64,000 nt of DNA from Halomonas halodenitrificans DSM 735 (GTDB taxonomy: Bacteria; Pseudomonadota; Gammaproteobacteria; Pseudomonadales; Halomonadaceae). How positions within the stretch are numbered: the stretch's first letter is position 1; every line of letters begins with the position of its first letter. The notes below the pieces were generated by a model. The model saw nothing but the letters and a program-made list of their open reading frames with translations, was not told the origin of the DNA and did no database searches. Positions 1,063-9,979 of this stretch are shown piece after piece. Both the position numbers and the translations under genes were made by a program. The DNA lies in the NCBI RefSeq assembly GCF_000620045.1, contig NZ_JHVH01000002.1, positions 124,001 to 188,000 on the forward strand, read 5' to 3'.

Positions 1063-1812
1063 TCAGTCCCGAAGCTCGAGGTAATCGAAGTGGCGCTTCA
1101 GCCGGCGTACCAGGGTCTCCAGCGCCTCACGGGACGGAGCGTCTTCGACCGCGTTGCGGTAGGCCGGGTCCAGGCAGCGCTCCAGCCGGGCTGGCTGAAT
1201 GGCGTAGCGACGCACCCCGCAGTCTGCCAGGGTCATGGCCAGTCGTTCCAGCGATTCCAGGGTGAAGTCGCGCCAGTGCAGCTTGGTGCGGCACTCGAAG
1301 GGGATCCTGTCCTCCAGCAGCAACGACAGGCTGAGCGCGTGGTGGCGCCAGATGCCGGGCCGCCCACAGACGCGGTCGAAGTCGGCGCCGCGGCCCTTGG
1401 TGTCCAGGGCCACCCAGTCGAGCCGCGGCAGCAGACATTCGAGCCGCTCGGGATAGGGACCGGCAGTATGCAGCCCCACCGCCAGGCCCAGCGCCCGGCA
1501 GGCGTCGGCGGCGGCGGGCAGGTCCGGATGCAGGGTGGGCTCGCCGCCGCTGAACACCACGGCCTCGATCTCACCGACCCGCGCGGCCAGCAACGCCTCG
1601 AGTGCCTGCCATTCGCCCGGCGCCGGCCGTCGTGCCGGTCCCATGCTGCTCGCCGTCTCGCAGTAGCCGCATGCCAGCGGGCAGCCCTGCAGGTAGACCA
1701 CTGCCGCCCGGCGCCCGGGGAAGGCGTGGTCGTCACGAGCGTCGAAGCCGGCGATCGGCAGTTGGATCGAGCGGCTTGGCTCAGGCACCAGGGGTATCAC
1801 CTCGACACTCAT
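1063..1812 (-). CDS. Second NrdG-like radical SAM activase
   Basis: A 249-residue radical SAM protein with the CxxxCxxC cluster motif in GCPLACGYCE (about residues 44-51), an SGGEP glycine motif (FSGGEPTLHPDLP) and a C-terminal half (HWRDFTLESLERL, YAIQPARLERCLDP) clearly paralogous to the nrdG at 3835-4560. It belongs to the ~240-residue NrdG2 type that makes a glycyl radical on anaerobic ribonucleotide reductase. Its ATG overlaps the stop of ubiV (ATGA), implying translational coupling. No second glycyl-radical enzyme is visible in the window, so whether it is a spare NrdG or serves the UbiUV pathway is open. Confidence 0.85.
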   Translation of the reverse strand: MSVEVIPLVPEPSRSIQLPIAGFDARDDHAFPGRRAAVVYLQGCPLACGYCETASSMGPARRPAPGEWQALEALLAARVGEIEAVVFSGGEPTLHPDLPAAADACRALGLAVGLHTAGPYPERLECLLPRLDWVALDTKGRGADFDRVCGRPGIWRHHALSLSLLLEDRIPFECRTKLHWRDFTLESLERLAMTLADCGVRRYAIQPARLERCLDPAYRNAVEDAPSREALETLVRRLKRHFDYLELRD

Positions 1813-2738: not shown

Positions 2739-3734
2739 CTATTTCCAGCGGCGCTCGTAGGCGCCCAGGGTGGTGGTGGTGCCTTCGGAGACCTCGCCCA
2801 GGCCGGTCATCCAGGCGGGCTCGGTGTGGAAGCGGCCCGGGGCCTGCGCCAGCCGGTCCAGGGCCTGACGCCAGATGCCGGCCACCTTGGATACATAGGC
2901 CGGGCTGCGCTGGCGGCCCTCGATCTTGACTGCCGCGATACCGAGTTCCTCGAGTTCCGGCAGCAGCTCCAGGGTGTTGAGGCTGGTGGGCTCCTCGATG
3001 GCGTGATAGGTCTCGCCGCCCACCTCGAAACGTCCCTTGCACAGCGTCGGATAGCCGGCGTTCTCGCCCTCGCCGTAGCGGTCGATCAGCACCCCGTTGA
3101 GGCGTGACTCGAGACCCCTGGGAGTCTCCTCCCAGCGCACATGGGCCGCCGGGGAGCAGACGCCGCGGGTGTTGGGCGATTCGCCGGTCAGGTAGGAGGA
3201 GAGGTAGCAGCGACCCTCGGCCATGATGCAGAGGCTGCCGAAGGCGAAGACCTCGAGTTCCACCGGGCTCTGCTTCGCCAGGTCGCGTACCTGGGTCATG
3301 GAGAGCACCCGCGGCAGCACGGCGCGCTTGATGCCGAACTGGTCGTGATAGAAGCGCAGCGCCTCGTGGCTGGTGGCCGAGCCCTGCACCGAGAGGTGAC
3401 GGGCGAGGTCCGGGTGGCGGCGGGCGGCGTAGTCGAGCAGCCCCATGTCGGCCATGATCAGGGCGTCGACGCCGAGATCCGCGGCCTGATCCACGGCGCG
3501 GGTCCACATCGCCCAGCCATCCGGCTGTGGGTAGGTGTTGATGGCGCAGAAGACCCGCTTGCCCCGGGCATGGGCATAGTCGATGCCCTCCCTGGCACGC
3601 TTGTCGGTGAAGTTGAGGCCGGCGAACTGGCGGGCATTGGTGGTGTTCTGAAAGCCGAAATAGACGGCATCGGCCCCTTCATCCACGGCGCGCTTAAGGG
3701 CGGGCAAGTTGCCGGCGGGGCAGACGAGCTCCAT
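2739..3734 (-). CDS. ubiU: UbiU, O2-independent ubiquinone hydroxylation
   Basis: A 331-residue U32-family protein starting MELVCPAGNLPALKRAVDEG, the family's hallmark N-terminus. Four cluster-ligand cysteines can be placed in SLCIMAEGRCYLSS, NTRGVCSPAAH and PTLCKGRFEV. It partners UbiV (next gene) in anaerobic ubiquinone synthesis, needed for nitrate/nitrite respiration. An AGGAGG-like site sits just upstream of the ATG (CAGGAGGCTCACC). Upstream is a class II FNR-type promoter, so UbiU heads a sub-operon with ubiV and the second activase. Confidence 0.94.
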   Translation of the reverse strand: MELVCPAGNLPALKRAVDEGADAVYFGFQNTTNARQFAGLNFTDKRAREGIDYAHARGKRVFCAINTYPQPDGWAMWTRAVDQAADLGVDALIMADMGLLDYAARRHPDLARHLSVQGSATSHEALRFYHDQFGIKRAVLPRVLSMTQVRDLAKQSPVELEVFAFGSLCIMAEGRCYLSSYLTGESPNTRGVCSPAAHVRWEETPRGLESRLNGVLIDRYGEGENAGYPTLCKGRFEVGGETYHAIEEPTSLNTLELLPELEELGIAAVKIEGRQRSPAYVSKVAGIWRQALDRLAQAPGRFHTEPAWMTGLGEVSEGTTTTLGAYERRWK

Positions 3735-3757
3735 GGTGAGCCTCCTGTCGTGGGAAT

Positions 3758-3806
3758 CCCGACCATGCTAGTCGACTATTCCCCGCGGACTATTGACTCG
3801 GGTCAT
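3758..3806 (-). promoter_or_regulatory. FNR/DNR-type promoter of ubiU
   Basis: On the minus strand, ATGACCCGAGTCAA (3806-3793) has the full TGAC-N4-GTCA core. A -10-like TAGCAT lies at 3770-3765. A box centred at -41.5 would put the start site near 3758, leaving a 24-nt leader with the ribosome site. The outer bases deviate from TTGAT-N4-ATCAA, which fits a DNR/FNR-type site of moderate strength. Confidence 0.6.
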
Positions 3807-3834
3807 GGCGGAGGCGGTCTGCCGAGCACGCGCC

Positions 3835-4560
3835 TCAGTGACGCAGCTCGAGCCGGAGGAAGGCGTCGCGCAGGTTGGCCGCCAGCGACTCGACGGCCGT
3901 GGAAGAGGGGGCATCCGGCGGTGATATCGCATAGCGTGCATCCAGGCACTGCTCGGCGCGCGCCACCTGGATGGCATAGTGCTCCACGCCCTGTGCGGCC
4001 AGGTCCAGGGCCAGGCGCCGCAGCCCTTCCAGGTCGAAGTCGCGCCAGTGGACCGTGGTGCGGCACTCGACGTCGATATCGCTGGCCAGCAACCGGGCCA
4101 GGCTCTCGCGATGGGCGGCGGCCATGCCGGTCCGGCCGACGATGGCGTCGAACTGTGCATCCGGCCCCTTCACGTCGAGCCCCACCCAGTCGAGATGGGG
4201 CAGCAGCGCCGCCAGGCGCCGGGGATAGACGCCGGCGGTGTGCAACCCGACCTTGAAACCCAGGGCGCGGACCCGCGCGGCGGCCAGCGGCAGATCGGCG
4301 TGCAGGGTGGGCTCGCCGCCGCTGAACACCACGCTCTCCAGCAGGCCCCGGCGCGTTTCGAGGAAGGCCTCGACCCCCGCCCACTCGTCGGGCTCGGCCT
4401 TCCTGGGGGTGAGCATCTGGGGGTTATGGCAGTAGCCGCAGCGCAGTGGGCAGCCCTGGAGGAAGACGACACTCGCCAGGTGGCCGGGATAGTCCAGGGT
4501 GGTCATGGGGGTCAGGCCGGCCACGGGGAGACACGGCCGATGGGGGGCGAAATCTGACAT
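3835..4560 (-). CDS. nrdG: NrdG, anaerobic ribonucleotide reductase activase
   Basis: A radical SAM protein of 241 residues from the ATG at 4560, chosen over an upstream GTG at 4581 because GGAAGG lies 5 bp before it. The cluster motif is GCPLRCGYCHNPQ (CxxxCxxC), followed by SGGEPTLH. NrdG reduces SAM to make the glycyl radical on NrdD. It is longer than E. coli NrdG (about 154 residues) and matches the NrdG2 type. It lies downstream of nrdD and the small glycyl-radical gene in the same operon, consistent with its role. Confidence 0.92.
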   Translation of the reverse strand: MSDFAPHRPCLPVAGLTPMTTLDYPGHLASVVFLQGCPLRCGYCHNPQMLTPRKAEPDEWAGVEAFLETRRGLLESVVFSGGEPTLHADLPLAAARVRALGFKVGLHTAGVYPRRLAALLPHLDWVGLDVKGPDAQFDAIVGRTGMAAAHRESLARLLASDIDVECRTTVHWRDFDLEGLRRLALDLAAQGVEHYAIQVARAEQCLDARYAISPPDAPSSTAVESLAANLRDAFLRLELRH

Positions 4561-4617: not shown

Positions 4618-4779
4618 TCATGTGCGGATAGCTGACTCGTTGAAGTGCTCACGCTCACGATGCTCGGCCTGTTTGCCGTGGTTGAACTGGGCGACCGGGC
4701 GGTGATAGCCCATCACCCGGGTCCAGACCTCGCAGCGCTGGCGTTCTTCGGTGGGCAGGTTTTCGACGCTATGGCGCAT
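4618..4779 (-). CDS. Small protein carrying the NrdD glycyl-radical loop
   Basis: A 53-residue protein starting MRHSVENLPTEERQRCEVWT, with a strong AAAAGGAG ribosome site 7 bp before the ATG. Residues 16-50 read as the C-terminal end of class III ribonucleotide reductase: CEVWTRVMGYHRPV with the radical glycine at residue 24, then FNHGKQAEHRER. The large nrdD product just upstream stops before this segment and is in another frame. The reductase therefore seems to be made as two chains, with the radical-bearing tail supplied separately, 41 bp downstream of the nrdD stop. The good start signal and intact motif argue against simple decay; a sequencing frameshift is not excluded. Confidence 0.8.
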   Translation of the reverse strand: MRHSVENLPTEERQRCEVWTRVMGYHRPVAQFNHGKQAEHREREHFNESAIRT

Positions 4780-4820
4780 GTGATGCTCCTTTTTACCTTG
4801 GTTGTCTTGCAGGAAAGGCC

Positions 4821-6542
4821 TCAGGCCGTGGCATCGGCCCGGGCACGTGTCGCCAGGAGTGCCTCGTCGCACTTCGGGCAGAACTCATGTTCTCCGGCCA
4901 GGTAGCCGTGCACCGGGCAGATCGAGAAGGTCGGCGTCACGGTGAGATAGGGCAGGCGGAAGCGGGAGAGGGCGGTGTGCACCAGGGTCTTGCAGGCCTC
5001 GACCGACGAGAGCCGCTCGCGCATGTAGAGATGCAGCACGGTGCCGCCGGTGTAGCGGGTCTGCAGCGGGTCCTGGTGCAACAGGGCCTCGAAGGGGTCA
5101 TCGGTGTGGCCCACCGGTAACTGGCTGGAGTTGGTGTAATAGGGCGACTGTGCCGTGCCCGCCTGCAGGATGCCGGGGAAGCGTCGGCGGTCCTCCTTGG
5201 CGAAGCGGTAGGTGGTGCCCTCGGCCGGGGTCGCCTCCAGATTGTAGAGGTGGCCGGTCGACGCCTGGAATTCCCGCATGCGTTCGCGGACGTGATCCAG
5301 CAGCTCCAGGGCCTGCTGTTGGCCTTCGGGGTCGGCGATATCGAAATGGTCGTCGGAAAAGTTGCGCACCATCTCGTTGAGGCCGTTTACCCCCAGGGTG
5401 GCGAAGTGGTTACGCAAGGTGCCCAGGTAGCGGCGGCTGTAGGGATAGAGGCCGTCGTCCATCCAGCCCTGGATGCACTGGCGCTTGATCTCCAGGCTGT
5501 CGCGGCCGAGTTCGAGCAGCCGGTCCAGCTCCTGGAAGAGTCCCGCCCGGTCGCCGGCGAAACGGTGGCCCAGGCGCGCACAGTTGATGGTCACCACACC
5601 CAGCGAGCCGGTCTGCTCGGCACTGCCGAACAGCCCGTTGCCGCGCTTGAGCAGCTCGGTCAGGTCGAGCTGCAGGCGGCAGCACATGGAACGCACCATG
5701 TGCGGCTCCAGCTCCGAGTTGAGGAAGTTCTGGAAGTAGGGCAGCCCGTACTTGGCGGTCAGGGCGAAGAGCCGCTCGGCGTTGTCGCACTGCCAGTCGA
5801 AGTCGTGGGTTATGTTGTAGGTGGGGATCGGGAAGGTGAACACCCGCCCCTGTGAGTCGCCTTCCTCCATCACCTCCAGGTAGGCGCGGTTGAGCAGGTC
5901 CATCTCGGCCTGCAGTTCGCCATAGGTGAAGGGCTGCTCCTCGCCGCCGATGACCGGCACCCGGTCGCGCAGATCCTCTGGGCACACCCAGTCGAAGGTC
6001 AGATTGGTGAACGGTGTCTGGCTGCCCCAGCGCGATGGCACGTTGAGGTTGTAGATGAATTCCTGCACCGCCTGCTTCACCGCTGGATAATCGAGGCCAT
6101 CGAGACGCACGAAGGGCGCCAGGTAGGTATCGAAGGAGCTGAATGCCTGGGCACCGGCCCACTCGTTCTGCAGGGTGCCGAGGAAGTTGACCATCTGCCC
6201 CAGGGCGCTGGAGAGGTGGCGGGGCGGGGCACTCTCCGCCCGGCCCGGCACCCCGTTGAAGCCCTCGGTCAGCAGCGTGCGCAGCGACCAGCCGGCGCAG
6301 TAGCCGCCGAGCATGTCCAGGTCGTGGATATGCAGGTCGGCCTCCCGGTGGGCCTCGCTCACCGCGGCGGGATAGACCTCGTTCAGCCAGTAATTGGCCA
6401 CCAGCTTGCCGGAGGCGTTGAGGATCAGCCCGCCCAGGGAATAGCCCTGGTTGGCGTTGGCATTGACACGCCAGTCGGTGCGCTGGAGGTACTCGTTGAC
6501 CGTCGAGGCGACATCGACGGCGCCGGGCTGCGGACTTGCCAT
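4821..6542 (-). CDS. nrdD: NrdD, anaerobic ribonucleoside-triphosphate reductase, large chain
   Basis: About 573 residues from the ATG at 6542, preceded by AAAAGGAG; an upstream ATG at 6572 is less likely. The protein makes dNTPs under anoxia by glycyl-radical chemistry. Recognisable parts are the N-terminal barrel start (NANANQGYSLGGL), active-site cysteine regions (GYCAGWS and SMCCRLQLD) and the C-terminal zinc site with CPVHGY and FCPKC pairs. The chain stops about 15 residues after the zinc site, without the RVxGY glycyl-radical loop, which is on the next gene. It also has no room for an N-terminal ATP-cone (E. coli NrdD is 712 residues), so overall-activity control by dATP may be absent. 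Confidence 0.93.
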   Translation of the reverse strand: MASPQPGAVDVASTVNEYLQRTDWRVNANANQGYSLGGLILNASGKLVANYWLNEVYPAAVSEAHREADLHIHDLDMLGGYCAGWSLRTLLTEGFNGVPGRAESAPPRHLSSALGQMVNFLGTLQNEWAGAQAFSSFDTYLAPFVRLDGLDYPAVKQAVQEFIYNLNVPSRWGSQTPFTNLTFDWVCPEDLRDRVPVIGGEEQPFTYGELQAEMDLLNRAYLEVMEEGDSQGRVFTFPIPTYNITHDFDWQCDNAERLFALTAKYGLPYFQNFLNSELEPHMVRSMCCRLQLDLTELLKRGNGLFGSAEQTGSLGVVTINCARLGHRFAGDRAGLFQELDRLLELGRDSLEIKRQCIQGWMDDGLYPYSRRYLGTLRNHFATLGVNGLNEMVRNFSDDHFDIADPEGQQQALELLDHVRERMREFQASTGHLYNLEATPAEGTTYRFAKEDRRRFPGILQAGTAQSPYYTNSSQLPVGHTDDPFEALLHQDPLQTRYTGGTVLHLYMRERLSSVEACKTLVHTALSRFRLPYLTVTPTFSICPVHGYLAGEHEFCPKCDEALLATRARADATA

Positions 6543-6565
6543 GGGGGGCTCCTTTTCGCTGCATG

Positions 6566-6612
6566 TGTCCATATATGGTGTGGGTTGTGTTTTTTAATAC
6601 CATATATTGTGT
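6566..6612 (-). promoter_or_regulatory. Tandem NrdR boxes upstream of nrdD
   Basis: Two near-palindromic 16-mers, TGTCCATATATGGTGT (6566-6581) and ATACCATATATTGTGT (6597-6612), match the AT-rich core and flanks of NrdR boxes. Their starts are 31 bp apart, about three helical turns, the usual NrdR arrangement. They cover the predicted transcription start, fitting repression when dATP/ATP is high. NrdR itself is not in the window. Confidence 0.8.
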
Positions 6613-6806: not shown

Positions 6807-7421
6807 TCAGGCGTGGTCGGGTCGCGCGTCGCACAAGGGACAGAAGTCGGCCTGCTCGCCGTGGCCCAGGCGCAGGCCGGTGTGGTGGTCGGCGACCTGC
6901 CGGTAGAGCCGCTGAAAGCCGGGGCTGCCTTCCGCGGGGCTCGCCAGGGAGAGTCGAGGCGCCAGCTGGTTCAGTTGATCGGCATCGATGCAGCGCTCGA
7001 GCAGCGGATAGACGTGCCGGTTCTCGCTGTGCAGGTGATGGTGATAGAGCTCGCTGAAGGACCGGGCAAGGTTGAGTCGGTTCAGGTCGAGCTCGGCCTG
7101 TGGCGAGTCCTCGGCCCAGCGGTGGAAGGTCGCTTCGAGCGCCTTGCCATCGCGGGTGATCCGCCGGTGTTCCTCGGTGAGCACGGCGAGCAGGTCGGCG
7201 CTCTGTGTATCGCAGTCGGCCAGGCGGGCGAAGAGGACGTCCTCCACCGGATAGTGCCACTCCTCGGGTTGGTGGGTCAGGTAGTGGCAGAGCCTGGCCA
7301 GCAGGCAGTAATCGGGAATCTCGTCGCAGGTGGCGATATGCAGTTGGCGGTCGAGGATGCAGAGCAGCGCCGCATAGCGGTGATGGTCGGCATGCAGGCG
7401 TTCGAAAACAAGGGTTTTCAT
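6807..7421 (-). CDS. Hemerythrin (HHE) domain protein
   Basis: 204 residues from the ATG at 7421, with GGGAGG 4 bp before it; the 18 codons further upstream are not needed. Histidine/glutamate-rich helices (FERLHADHHRYAALL, HYPVEDVLF, LTEEHRRI, YHHHLHSENRHVYPLLE) mark a four-helix di-iron fold that can bind O2 or NO. The C-terminus adds a CPLC pair (ADFCPLCDARP), possibly a metal or redox site. It lies 60 bp behind ric on the same strand, so it probably shares the NorR/sigma-54 promoter and helps with NO or iron handling. Confidence 0.8.
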   Translation of the reverse strand: MKTLVFERLHADHHRYAALLCILDRQLHIATCDEIPDYCLLARLCHYLTHQPEEWHYPVEDVLFARLADCDTQSADLLAVLTEEHRRITRDGKALEATFHRWAEDSPQAELDLNRLNLARSFSELYHHHLHSENRHVYPLLERCIDADQLNQLAPRLSLASPAEGSPGFQRLYRQVADHHTGLRLGHGEQADFCPLCDARPDHA

Positions 7422-7481
7422 GTGGCCTCCCGGGGGCATTGCCGAGGCTTGCGGCGATGCCCCGTCATCTATGTGGCCGGC

Positions 7482-8138
7482 TTAGCCGGCGCGTTCGAAG
7501 AGCAGGTTGTTCTCCAGGTGAATGTGCTGCATCAGGTCATCGCGGAACTCTCCCAGTCCTGTGTAGAGCGCGCGCCAGGTGGTGCAGGCCCCCTTGGGCG
7601 GGGTGATATCGTCGGTCAGTGCCGCCAGCTGCTCCAGGTGTTCACCGTGGTCGTCGTGCTCGTGGCGCATCACGGCGATGGGGCCCTGGGCCTGGGCGGC
7701 ACCGCCCCGGCGCAGCATCGGGAAGAGAACCTGTTCCTCCTTCTGCATATGACTCTCCATCGTCTGATAGAGGGTGGTGAGGAGGTCGGCGAGGCCGTTG
7801 GGGCAGGTGTCCCGCTCGCCGTGGACCTGTTCGACGCGGCGGGCCATGCGCACCAGTTCGGGCAACTGCTGGCGGTGGACCTCGTGATAGCGGGTCAGGA
7901 TATGCTCGATCAGCTCGTCGTTGCTGGCCGATTGCCAGTCGCGCGCATCACTGTCGCCGGCCGGTAGTGTCTCGAGTTCGGTCGCCAGCGCCTCGGGGGC
8001 CAGGCCGATGCGCTCGGCGGCCTCGCGAAGGGTGATGCGCCCGCCGCAGCAGAAGTCGATGTTGTGGTCGCGAAAGATTCGGGTAGCGCCGGGCAGGGTC
8101 AGGGCGATGCGGCCGACGTTCTGTTCGATCAGGTTCAT
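7482..8138 (-). CDS. ytfE: Iron-sulfur cluster repair di-iron protein (RIC/YtfE)
   Basis: 218 residues from MNLIEQNVGRIALTLPGATR; E. coli YtfE has 220. The N-terminal ScdA_N domain has the HNIDFCCGG motif, and the di-iron hemerythrin-like domain has histidines/glutamates in RYHEVHRQQLPEL, ESHMQKEEQVLFPML, RHEHDDHGEHLEQL and QHIHLENNLLFERA. The protein repairs NO- or peroxide-damaged Fe-S clusters. The start at 8138 has a GGGAG 8 bp upstream. It is divergent from norR and served by a sigma-54 promoter, so it is a direct NO-response gene. Names in related bacteria are dnrN, norA or scdA. Confidence 0.95.
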   Translation of the reverse strand: MNLIEQNVGRIALTLPGATRIFRDHNIDFCCGGRITLREAAERIGLAPEALATELETLPAGDSDARDWQSASNDELIEHILTRYHEVHRQQLPELVRMARRVEQVHGERDTCPNGLADLLTTLYQTMESHMQKEEQVLFPMLRRGGAAQAQGPIAVMRHEHDDHGEHLEQLAALTDDITPPKGACTTWRALYTGLGEFRDDLMQHIHLENNLLFERAG

Positions 8139-8195
8139 GGTAGAGGCTCCCGGGGGGCAGAGGATAAAGACGGTCCGAGTGGTACCCCTTACCAA

Positions 8196-8210
8196 GCAAG
8201 TGGCGTGCCA
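8196..8210 (-). promoter_or_regulatory. Sigma-54 promoter of ric/ytfE
   Basis: Minus strand reads TGGCACGCCACTTGC, matching the -24/-12 consensus TGGCAC-N5-TTGC at all fixed positions. The start site should fall near 8184, leaving about 45 nt of leader before the ric ATG at 8138. Sigma-54 promoters need an AAA+ activator; NorR is encoded divergently and its boxes lie about 160-220 bp upstream. Confidence 0.9.
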
Positions 8211-8371
8211 ATTCCCGGCAATCCGTGACAATGGAAGAGGACTGCCAGGAGGCGCCGTTGCCGGCATCGTGAAGAAGGGACGGCGCTCCGGGCCTGTCGC
8301 CGACCCCGAACGGCCCAGCCGTCGAATCATCGATGAGGCCATCGACGATGGACTCTGTGCGCGGCGAGAGT

Positions 8372-8428
8372 GGTGAAAAATACCCGGACGATTTAGGGTG
8401 AATAAAACCCTTCAAGGTGATTCTCACC
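8372..8428 (-). promoter_or_regulatory. Three NorR enhancer boxes
   Basis: Three copies of GGT-N7-ACC occur at 8372-8384, 8397-8409 and 8416-8428, the NorR recognition pattern. Starts are 25 and 19 bp apart. The last box ends directly before the norR ATG and covers its ribosome site, so NorR could also limit its own synthesis. Three boxes is the number known at NorR-controlled promoters such as norVW. Confidence 0.85.
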
Positions 8429-9979
8429 ATGCTTGACGACAGCCTGCTGGCAGACCTGGTGGTCGACCTGCCCAGCGCGGTGCGCCTGCAGCGCCTGGTA
8501 CGCACCCTGCGCGAAGCCTTCCGGTGCGGTGCCGTCTGCCTGCTGCGCCTGGAGGAGGGCTCCCTGGTGCCGCTGGCCCTGGATGGCCTGGTGCGAGAGG
8601 CGCTGGGGCGTCGCTTCGAGTTGGTCCAGCATCCACGCCTGGCCACCATCTTCGCCAGTCGCCGCGCCACCCTCTTCGCCCCGGATGCCAGCCTTCCGGA
8701 CCCCTATGATGGCCTGGTGGAGCAGCAGCCCGGTCAGCCCCTTGATGTCCATGACTGCATGGGCATCGGCCTGTACGTGGAGGGCGAGCCCTGGGGGGTG
8801 TTGACCCTGGATGCACTGGAGGCGGGAACCTTCGATGACGCCGCCTGTGCCGCCCTGGAGCGTTATGCGTTGCTGGTCGAATCCGCGGTAAGGGTCAGTC
8901 GCCTGGAGCGTGATCTGCGCGCCCTGCGCATGGCCAGGCAGGATAGCGGCCTGCCGCTGGCCGCCCCCGCGGCCCGCGATATCCTCGGTCATAGCGGGGA
9001 GCTGCAGCGGCTGCTGCGCGAACTCGACGTCGTGGCGGGAGCGGACCTGTCGGTACTGCTCAGTGGCGAGACCGGCGTCGGCAAGGAGCTCTTTGCCCGC
9101 CGCCTGCATCGCCGCTCGGCGCGACACGCCGCGCCGCTGGTGCAGGTGAACTGTGCGGCGTTGCCCGAGACGCTGGCCGAGAGCGAGCTGTTCGGCCATG
9201 TGAGGGGGGCCTTCTCCGGCGCCACCGCGGCGCGTGCCGGACGCTTCGAGGCCGCCGATGGCGGCACCCTGTTCCTCGACGAGGTGGGCGAGCTGGCGCT
9301 GTCGGTGCAGGCCAAGCTGCTGCGCGCGATTCAGGAGGGCGAGGTACAGCGCCTGGGCGAGGATATGCCGCGCCGCGTGGATGTACGCATCATCGCCGCC
9401 ACCAATCGTCAACTGGCCGAGGCGGTGCGTGCCGGCAGCTTTCGTGCTGATCTCTACCATCGCCTGTCGGTCTATCCGGTGGCCATTCCGCCGCTGCGTG
9501 ATCGAGGGAGCGATGTGCTGGTACTCGCCGGCCACTTCCTGGAGATCAATCGCACCCGGCTCGGGATGCGCAGCCTGCGCCTCTCTCCGGAGGCGGAGGC
9601 GCGGCTGCTGTCCTATGACTGGCCGGGTAATGTGCGTGAGCTGGAGCATGTGATCAGCCGCGCGGCGATCAAGGCCTTGAGCCACGGCGCGCGGCGCGAC
9701 GATATCATTACCCTGGTGCCCGAGTGGCTCGATCTGCCGGCGCCGGAGGCCGCTCCCGCCGAGGCCGCTCGTCAGGAGAAGGCATGGGCTGAGAGGGCAC
9801 GCGAAGAGGCGGCCGCGCCGGTGCCACTGGCGCTGCGCGAGCGCGTTGACCAGGCTCAGCGGACGGCGATCCGTGAGGCCCTCGCGGCCTGTGACGGGCG
9901 CTGGGCGGCGGCCGCCCGGCGGCTCGAGATAGATCCCAGCAATTTGCACAAGCTGGCCCGTCGGCTGGGGGTCAAGTAG
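8429..9979 (+). CDS. norR: NorR, NO-sensing sigma-54 activator
   Basis: 516 residues from the ATG at 8429 (AAGGTGA 8 bp upstream; a GTG at 8417 is the alternative). An N-terminal GAF domain (about 1-170) holds the NO-sensing non-haem iron in this family. The AAA+ domain shows Walker A GETGVGKE, the sigma-54 loop GAFSGA (GAFTGA variant), Walker B GGTLFLDEVGEL and the arginine-finger region FRADLYHRLSVYP. The C-terminal Fis-type HTH ends with SNLHKLARRLGVK. It should drive ric and hemerythrin; no norVW is present here. Confidence 0.95.
   Translation: MLDDSLLADLVVDLPSAVRLQRLVRTLREAFRCGAVCLLRLEEGSLVPLALDGLVREALGRRFELVQHPRLATIFASRRATLFAPDASLPDPYDGLVEQQPGQPLDVHDCMGIGLYVEGEPWGVLTLDALEAGTFDDAACAALERYALLVESAVRVSRLERDLRALRMARQDSGLPLAAPAARDILGHSGELQRLLRELDVVAGADLSVLLSGETGVGKELFARRLHRRSARHAAPLVQVNCAALPETLAESELFGHVRGAFSGATAARAGRFEAADGGTLFLDEVGELALSVQAKLLRAIQEGEVQRLGEDMPRRVDVRIIAATNRQLAEAVRAGSFRADLYHRLSVYPVAIPPLRDRGSDVLVLAGHFLEINRTRLGMRSLRLSPEAEARLLSYDWPGNVRELEHVISRAAIKALSHGARRDDIITLVPEWLDLPAPEAAPAEAARQEKAWAERAREEAAAPVPLALRERVDQAQRTAIREALAACDGRWAAAARRLEIDPSNLHKLARRLGVK

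Follow-up and report, generated by a model that had tools for sequence, protein, structure and literature searches.

Evidence for a class III ribonucleotide reductase encoded in two genes in Halomonas halodenitrificans, with the predicted glycyl radical site on a separate 53-residue chain

Class III ribonucleotide reductases (RNRs) are described with their radical domain as the C-terminal part of NrdD (PMC9531940, PMC9669993, PMC11226230, PMC4493059). In a 64,000-nucleotide stretch of the Halomonas halodenitrificans DSM 735 genome (contig NZ_JHVH01000002.1, positions 124,001 to 188,000; hereafter the window), the arrangement differs from that of the single-chain NrdD of T. maritima, P. copri and T4, in that the radical loop lies on a separate chain of 53 residues and there is no ATP-cone. 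We conclude that this locus very probably encodes a class III RNR in two genes, one for a NrdD core and one for a 53-residue chain with the predicted radical glycine, which would likely dock in trans and be charged by NrdG2, and an obligate two-chain enzyme is our best reading of the sequence data.

Small stand-alone glycyl-radical chains are known in GrcA (YfiD) and T4 Y06I, which act in trans on the core of PFL (PMC8683613). The window's chain is like them in this respect but, unlike GrcA, it matches the Pfam family NRDD (35.1 bits, E 8.2e-9) and not PF01228 (E<=1), it has 53 residues where YfiD is of about 14 kDa, and no intact single-chain enzyme accompanies it, which would make it a standing subunit. 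An RNR divided between two genes of one operon is also found among proteobacteria in NrdJa/NrdJb of Pseudomonas aeruginosa (PMC4520616); that enzyme, however, belongs to class II and its small chain serves disulfide exchange, whereas the small chain described here holds the predicted radical site. Phage nrdD genes, too, occur in pieces because of introns, inteins and fragmentation (PMC3653736), but as described there these are insertions or sporadic breaks of single genes, as opposed to the conserved two-gene architecture of the window type. In our literature search we did not find a cellular NrdD described as divided in this way; Siedow 1999 and Wei 2014 (on the N. bacilliformis class III RNR) lie outside that search, and either may already mention the separate loop.

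On the minus strand of the window, the NrdD core gene is followed by the gene for the small chain and then by nrdG2 (coordinates in Table 1). The NRDD profile, 562 positions long, divides between the large open reading frame (ORF; 566.1 bits, cut-off 26.2, E 1.2e-169) and the small one at position 531, and together the two therefore make up one complete member of the family. The large chain contains the barrel core, an MCCR finger-loop motif and the zinc ribbon, and ends in CPVHGYLAGEHEFCPKC-DEALLATRARADATA-stop, with the zinc site complete and no radical loop; in T. maritima NrdD the zinc ligands are Cys-His-Cys-Cys (PMC4493059). The small ORF encodes MRHSVENLPTEERQRCEVWTRVMGYHRPVAQFNHGKQAEHREREHFNESAIRT, which includes RVMGY and the FNxGKQxEHxxR segment, and it is separated from the nrdD stop by 41 bp (4780-4820), which leave a remainder of 2 on division by 3 and hence place it in a different frame. 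A preliminary description of this DNA had placed between 4618 and 6542 a nrdD without radical loop but with its zinc site, and RVMGY on a 53-residue ORF 41 bp downstream, in another frame and with a strong ribosome site and an ATG of its own, and we confirm all of this. It had also noted the lack of an N-terminal ATP-cone. This lack is borne out, as the Pfam scan did not find PF03477 in the window NrdD, and the match to NCBIfam PRK08270 (1006.7 bits, profile positions 98-650 of 684) begins only at position 98, so that the N-terminal part is missing; it is, however, a matter separate from the split, since the cone is retained in all four further split large chains scanned (C. necator, Shinella, Sulfuricurvum and Bradyrhizobium). 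An alternative nrdD start is possible at an in-frame ATG at 6572, upstream of 6542. Of the traits of a class III RNR, the locus has the NRDD core, a radical loop and a radical-SAM NrdG, and because the loop is on a separate chain and not on the same polypeptide we class the enzyme as a split variant and keep it apart from the standard NrdD.

Whether the split recurs in relatives had been posed as a check, and it does recur. Matches were found in 24 of 121 Halomonadaceae genomes, and core and radical piece are separate in 23 of the 24; no continuous nrdD was seen at this locus in close relatives, and the sole fused gene of the family (G018) reaches 64 bits with the window core, compared with more than 1000 bits for the split ones, and so belongs to a different NrdD type. 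In a sample of the genus, 22 of 61 genomes carry the small chain, in an open frame of at most 134 aa in all except two, which are split as well when read directly, their frame being open by chance. At the level of the class, 38 of 369 sampled genomes gave a match (hand count), of which 28 have separate pieces, 7 are fused and 3 partial; the 15 loci fetched from those 28 (L189-L203) all have core and small piece on different ORFs, with overlaps of some ten to twenty nucleotides in a few. At the level of the phylum, 66 of 397 sampled genomes gave a match (hand count); the radical piece is separate in 16, including G678, whose core match runs through a stop, and the rest are mostly single-chain. 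A scan of genome contigs yielded at least 579 stretches with at least 577 relatives, and among the best 80, which we took as named loci, the small ORF is separate and preceded by an upstream NrdD core ORF in 77; no core ORF was present in the remaining three within the stretch fetched, which reached up to 6 kb to either side. The split is also found in named plasmid records, among them those of C. necator H16 (pHG1), C. metallidurans CH34, P. denitrificans, B. japonicum, Shinella and Sulfuricurvum, and the plasmid-record collection also includes fused genes, in Actinomyces oris and Acidiphilium; Paracoccus, Bradyrhizobium and many Pseudomonas and Stutzerimonas genomes are further carriers. Many of the named carriers are, we presume, facultative denitrifiers. 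The order core, small chain, NrdG is preserved in most fetched loci, and in one genome (G771, locus L218) the small gene stays next to nrdG while nrdD, on the same strand, is some 9 kb away. A search confined to proteins 0.55-1.75 times as long as the query gave 3597 relatives of the small chain (database clusters, E<=0.01). Existing annotation names the large chains ribonucleoside triphosphate reductase without comment on the split, and labels the small gene 'nrdD', 'oxidoreductase', 'hypothetical protein' or 'anaerobic ribonucleoside-triphosphate reductase', or has no feature there.

C. necator H16 has a 676-aa large chain without the loop and a 66-aa small gene. The computed mass of this large chain alone is 76,191 Da, and the NrdD of the H16 NrdD/NrdG study (Siedow 1999) is said to be of 76.2 kDa. 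Complete denitrification in C. eutrophus H16 is reported to require NrdDG (PMC2864759), and since the H16 NrdD is split, the split enzyme appears to be functional in vivo.

The small ORF has the marks of a gene in its own right. In the 77 loci with a core, the start chosen (the one with the best ribosome site within 150 nt) is ATG in every case, and a ribosome-site word of at least 5 nt precedes it in 72, compared with 861 of the 13,283 ATGs that these loci contain. The small ORFs fall in all three frames with respect to the NrdD stop (31, 28 and 18 loci, the 18 being in the same frame), at gaps of -26 to 258 nt (median 38, with four overlaps). We also compared 82 small-chain cores, from the 80 named loci (including the three without NrdD core) and the two copies of H. 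halodenitrificans itself: 802 pairs that are 80-99% identical differ at codon positions 1/2/3 by 2486/2044/9971 changes, and the median ratio of nonsynonymous to synonymous rates (dN/dS) is 0.076 over 795 pairs, although the pairs are not independent and the two core patterns used to find the loci make conservation within them partly selected. These values place the small chains under strong purifying selection. An alignment of 30 chains (the window's and 29 of 120 listed matches) has 23 invariant columns, with RVMGY in all 30; the small chain alone matched no PDB chain at E<=10. Judged by its own start signals and its conservation, the small chain is a real gene, independent of the core ORF.

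The split is also repeated within the draft genome of H. halodenitrificans (52 contigs), where PF13597 has four matches, namely two cores and two C-terminal pieces divided from them by stop codons, and the same search found neither another NrdD-type loop nor an intact single-chain NrdD. The single split locus of the preliminary description is thus correct for the window but not for the genome, which has two such operons. In the second copy, located on a contig of 8.6 kb, the gene order is unchanged and the gap is 48 bp, with both ORFs in the same frame but separated by the core stop and one further stop before the small ORF; it could be foreign, considering the short contig and an assembly contamination of 1.15%. 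The two cores are identical at 516 of 573 residues (codon-position changes 35/32/157, dN 0.06, dS 0.49) and the two small chains at 39 of 53. PF01228, the PFL-type glycyl-radical domain, has no match in the whole genome (as a control, the profile matches 3 of 14 genomes), and neither PFL nor GrcA is therefore expected there; a spare part of the PFL type was ruled out for this reason.

In the mechanism that we propose, the free small chain would thread its loop into the core barrel in trans, and NrdG2 would charge Gly24 in the docked state, much as YfiD is charged when bound to cleaved PFL (PMC8683613). The radical would then pass from Gly24 to the finger-loop cysteine, MCCR-type finger loops being described in NrdD (PMC9669993). 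A plausible and likely benefit of the split would be that cleavage by oxygen at the glycyl radical destroys only the 6-kDa chain, and a fresh one could take its place with the core reused. Since the split recurs across many proteobacteria and virus contigs carry core-less small chains, the part with the radical is likely to be a subunit of its own, which may be replaceable. If the radical chain does exchange, this would help explain how bacteria of the oxic-anoxic border live with an enzyme that oxygen kills, and spare parts beyond PFL among glycyl radical enzymes (PMC8683613) would become directly testable. Biochemists would have in it a natural two-part enzyme with a radical chain open to labelling, swapping and titration.

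Several observations weigh against an obligate two-chain enzyme with a free radical chain. An AlphaFold2 model of a close relative's two chains has the NrdD fold, and its small-chain part extends to the radical-loop end seen in class III structures, but it was made as one tethered read-through chain, with fused relatives in the alignment, and says nothing on the association of free chains; moreover, five of the first 21 structure rows align only to model residue 540-541, short of the small chain. Choosing starts by their ribosome site inflates the ribosome-site count given above. The pair of small chains from H. halodenitrificans (codon changes 13/12/15, dN 0.25, dS 0.57, dN/dS about 0.44) is by itself weak evidence of constraint. 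Two RNR large subunits of class I/II type are also present in the genome, and the split NrdD need therefore not be essential here. Finally, when the C-terminal region of the tethered Billgrantia chain was used as query, 71 of the 120 matches listed (7999 in all) were fused and 49 ended before the loop, so that, close fused relatives being at hand, the split is not universal in the subfamily.

The linkers of these 71 fused proteins vary from 5 to 49 residues (median 19). Eleven contain an internal Met, and in four (P0121, P0172, P0206 and P0231) a start like that of the small chain follows it, which looks like re-fusion. After thinning of the split rows by shared words, a first tree gave five changes between split and fused, at least two of them forced; a second tree, to which 22 of the 71 listed fused matches were added and from which four long-branched rows were removed (71 rows, 43 split and 28 fused), gave 13 changes, at least three of them forced by strongly supported branches. 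On these trees, split and fused states have interchanged in evolution. Because the tether was gained or lost repeatedly and is variable in length, it is unlikely to be needed for function.

Core-less small chains on virus contigs are a new finding of this work. In IMG/VR, 180 stretches matched with 173 relatives, and in the best 80 (L085-L164; 58 distinct cores) the small chain is a separate ORF throughout, with no NrdD core ORF (window-core model, E<=1e-5) and no NrdG2-like ORF (E<=1e-3) in the fetched stretch; 48 of these records searched whole contained the C-terminal piece only, although virus records are frequently fragments and absence of the core there is no proof. Among 86 of 182 nearby ORFs that were scanned, portal, terminase, head, baseplate and endolysin families are represented. 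R2, N22, G24, K25, E28 and R32 of the 38-residue core, all of them outside the patterns used to find the chains, are invariant in 56 virus-contig and 82 bacterial chains, and the PHROGs family phrog_4132 (function unknown in PHROGs) matches the small chain. In bacteria, an Oxalobacter small chain (L079) sits between an endolysin and an Rz-like spanin in a prophage-like lysis cassette (5362-6603), two others (L044, L068) have neighbours with matches to a phage connector and to a tail protein, and on Allochromatium plasmid pALVIN01 a core-less small chain adjoins a CHAP-domain gene. The genomes of L044, L068 and L079 have one split NrdD operon each, and four genomes (G898, G899, G900, G387) have one to two extra small chains beside a single split NrdD. 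Two neighbours of the extra copy L247 had no PHROG match, and no phage gene was seen by eye, without a family search, around L219 and L249. Among 50,697 records of cultured phages, tblastn with the window chain hit one at E<=1e-3 (ANMV-1), and a virus-contig chain as query hit two at E<=0.01, a rarity that weighs against a general phage trait. The core-less copies fit with a part working detached from its own core. A bolder reading, which we consider unlikely at present, is that the NrdD radical loop is a mobile, interchangeable cartridge that split cores accept in trans, its phage copies, some of which adjoin lysis or virion genes, plugging into the host core to be charged by the host NrdG; if true, no radical spare part of an RNR would have been known before this cartridge, which would moreover be virus-borne. 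As further observations on these chains, the frame ahead of the radical loop is rich in Cys (C...C..C) in four of the 58 distinct virus-contig chains (L088, L099, L102, L116), resembling a second zinc ribbon, and in ANMV-1 (L208, KP703175), a virus of uncultured archaea, the NrdD radical loop is part of a protein of 144 aa (3686-4120), PF13597 finding no core in the whole 38-kb record.

Other explanations of the locus differ greatly in probability. A sequencing error, which had been raised as a possible refutation, or a decaying pseudogene might at first sight be suspected from a single assembly, but the second own copy, 23 of the 24 matching Halomonadaceae, 77 of the best 80 named loci, the genus genomes and the purifying selection on the small chain reduce this to a negligible chance. 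Recoding, by which a frameshift or stop read-through would join both ORFs into one NrdD, could appeal to the continuous relatives and to the 18 loci in which both ORFs share a frame; it is nonetheless very improbable in view of the mixed frames and scattered gaps, of an ATG and ribosome site retained by the small ORF, of the 9 kb between the genes in G771, and of small chains found without any core on virus contigs and on pALVIN01.

What the two chains gain from being separate is a closer question. The split might be neutral, the enzyme being a permanently tight pair that works as the fused one does and exchanges nothing; we regard this as nearly as probable as not, as the intermixing of split and fused forms on the tree is expected if the tether is irrelevant and the core-small-NrdG order is retained in most fetched loci, although the viral stand-alone and extra genomic copies suggest a separate use of the chain. 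As an extension of the two-gene explanation, the small chain could instead be an exchangeable spare part and the split a device for recovery from oxygen, a possibility that we hold only tentatively and with the balance tipped against it. YfiD/GrcA and T4 Y06I, which restore cleaved PFL, set the precedent, and it has been suggested that spare parts may exist for further glycyl radical enzymes (PMC8683613). The core-less chains on virus contigs and the extra small chains of the four genomes named above point the same way, as does the presumed facultative denitrification of many carriers. However, the genome has no single-chain NrdD to be rescued, which would make the chain a normal subunit, unlike PFL with GrcA, and E. 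coli, whose NrdD is a single chain, shows that facultative life is possible without a split.

Table 1. Features of the split nrdD locus (positions in the window)
Feature	Position	Strand	Basis and remarks
nrdD large chain (573 aa)	4821..6542	-	Pfam NRDD positions 2-531, PRK08270, sequence
Zinc-site stretch of large chain	4869..4919	-	sequence; T. maritima zinc ligands for comparison
Small chain, glycyl-radical loop protein (53 aa)	4618..4779	-	Pfam NRDD positions 531-562, relatives, conservation
RVMGY	4705..4719	-	Gly24 = predicted radical site; sequence and alignment
Ribosome site of small ORF, AAGGAG (AAAAAGGAG)	4786..4791	-	6 nt ahead of ATG, inside the 41-bp gap
nrdG2, radical-SAM activase	3835..4560	-	TIGR02495 NrdG2 188.7 bits, cut-off 131.15, scanned from 4557
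NrdR-box-like site (ATACCATATATTGTGT)	6597..6612		upstream of nrdD; 2 mismatches to consensus

The NrdR-box-like site is the sole one in the window at up to 4 mismatches, and 20 mononucleotide shuffles averaged 0 sites at up to 3 mismatches. Only one NrdD lies in the window, and a second radical-SAM ORF (1063-1812, minus strand; NrdG2 136.8 bits, cut-off 131.15) is located downstream of two U32-peptidase-type genes (3734-2739 and 2729-1809), which we take to be UbiU/UbiV-like. Upstream of nrdD, at 6807-8342 (minus strand) and 8417-9979 (plus strand), hemerythrin-like and RIC/YtfE-like ORFs and an opposite-strand regulator of sigma-54 type were recognized by eye, and these neighbours look like a nitric-oxide or denitrification setting.
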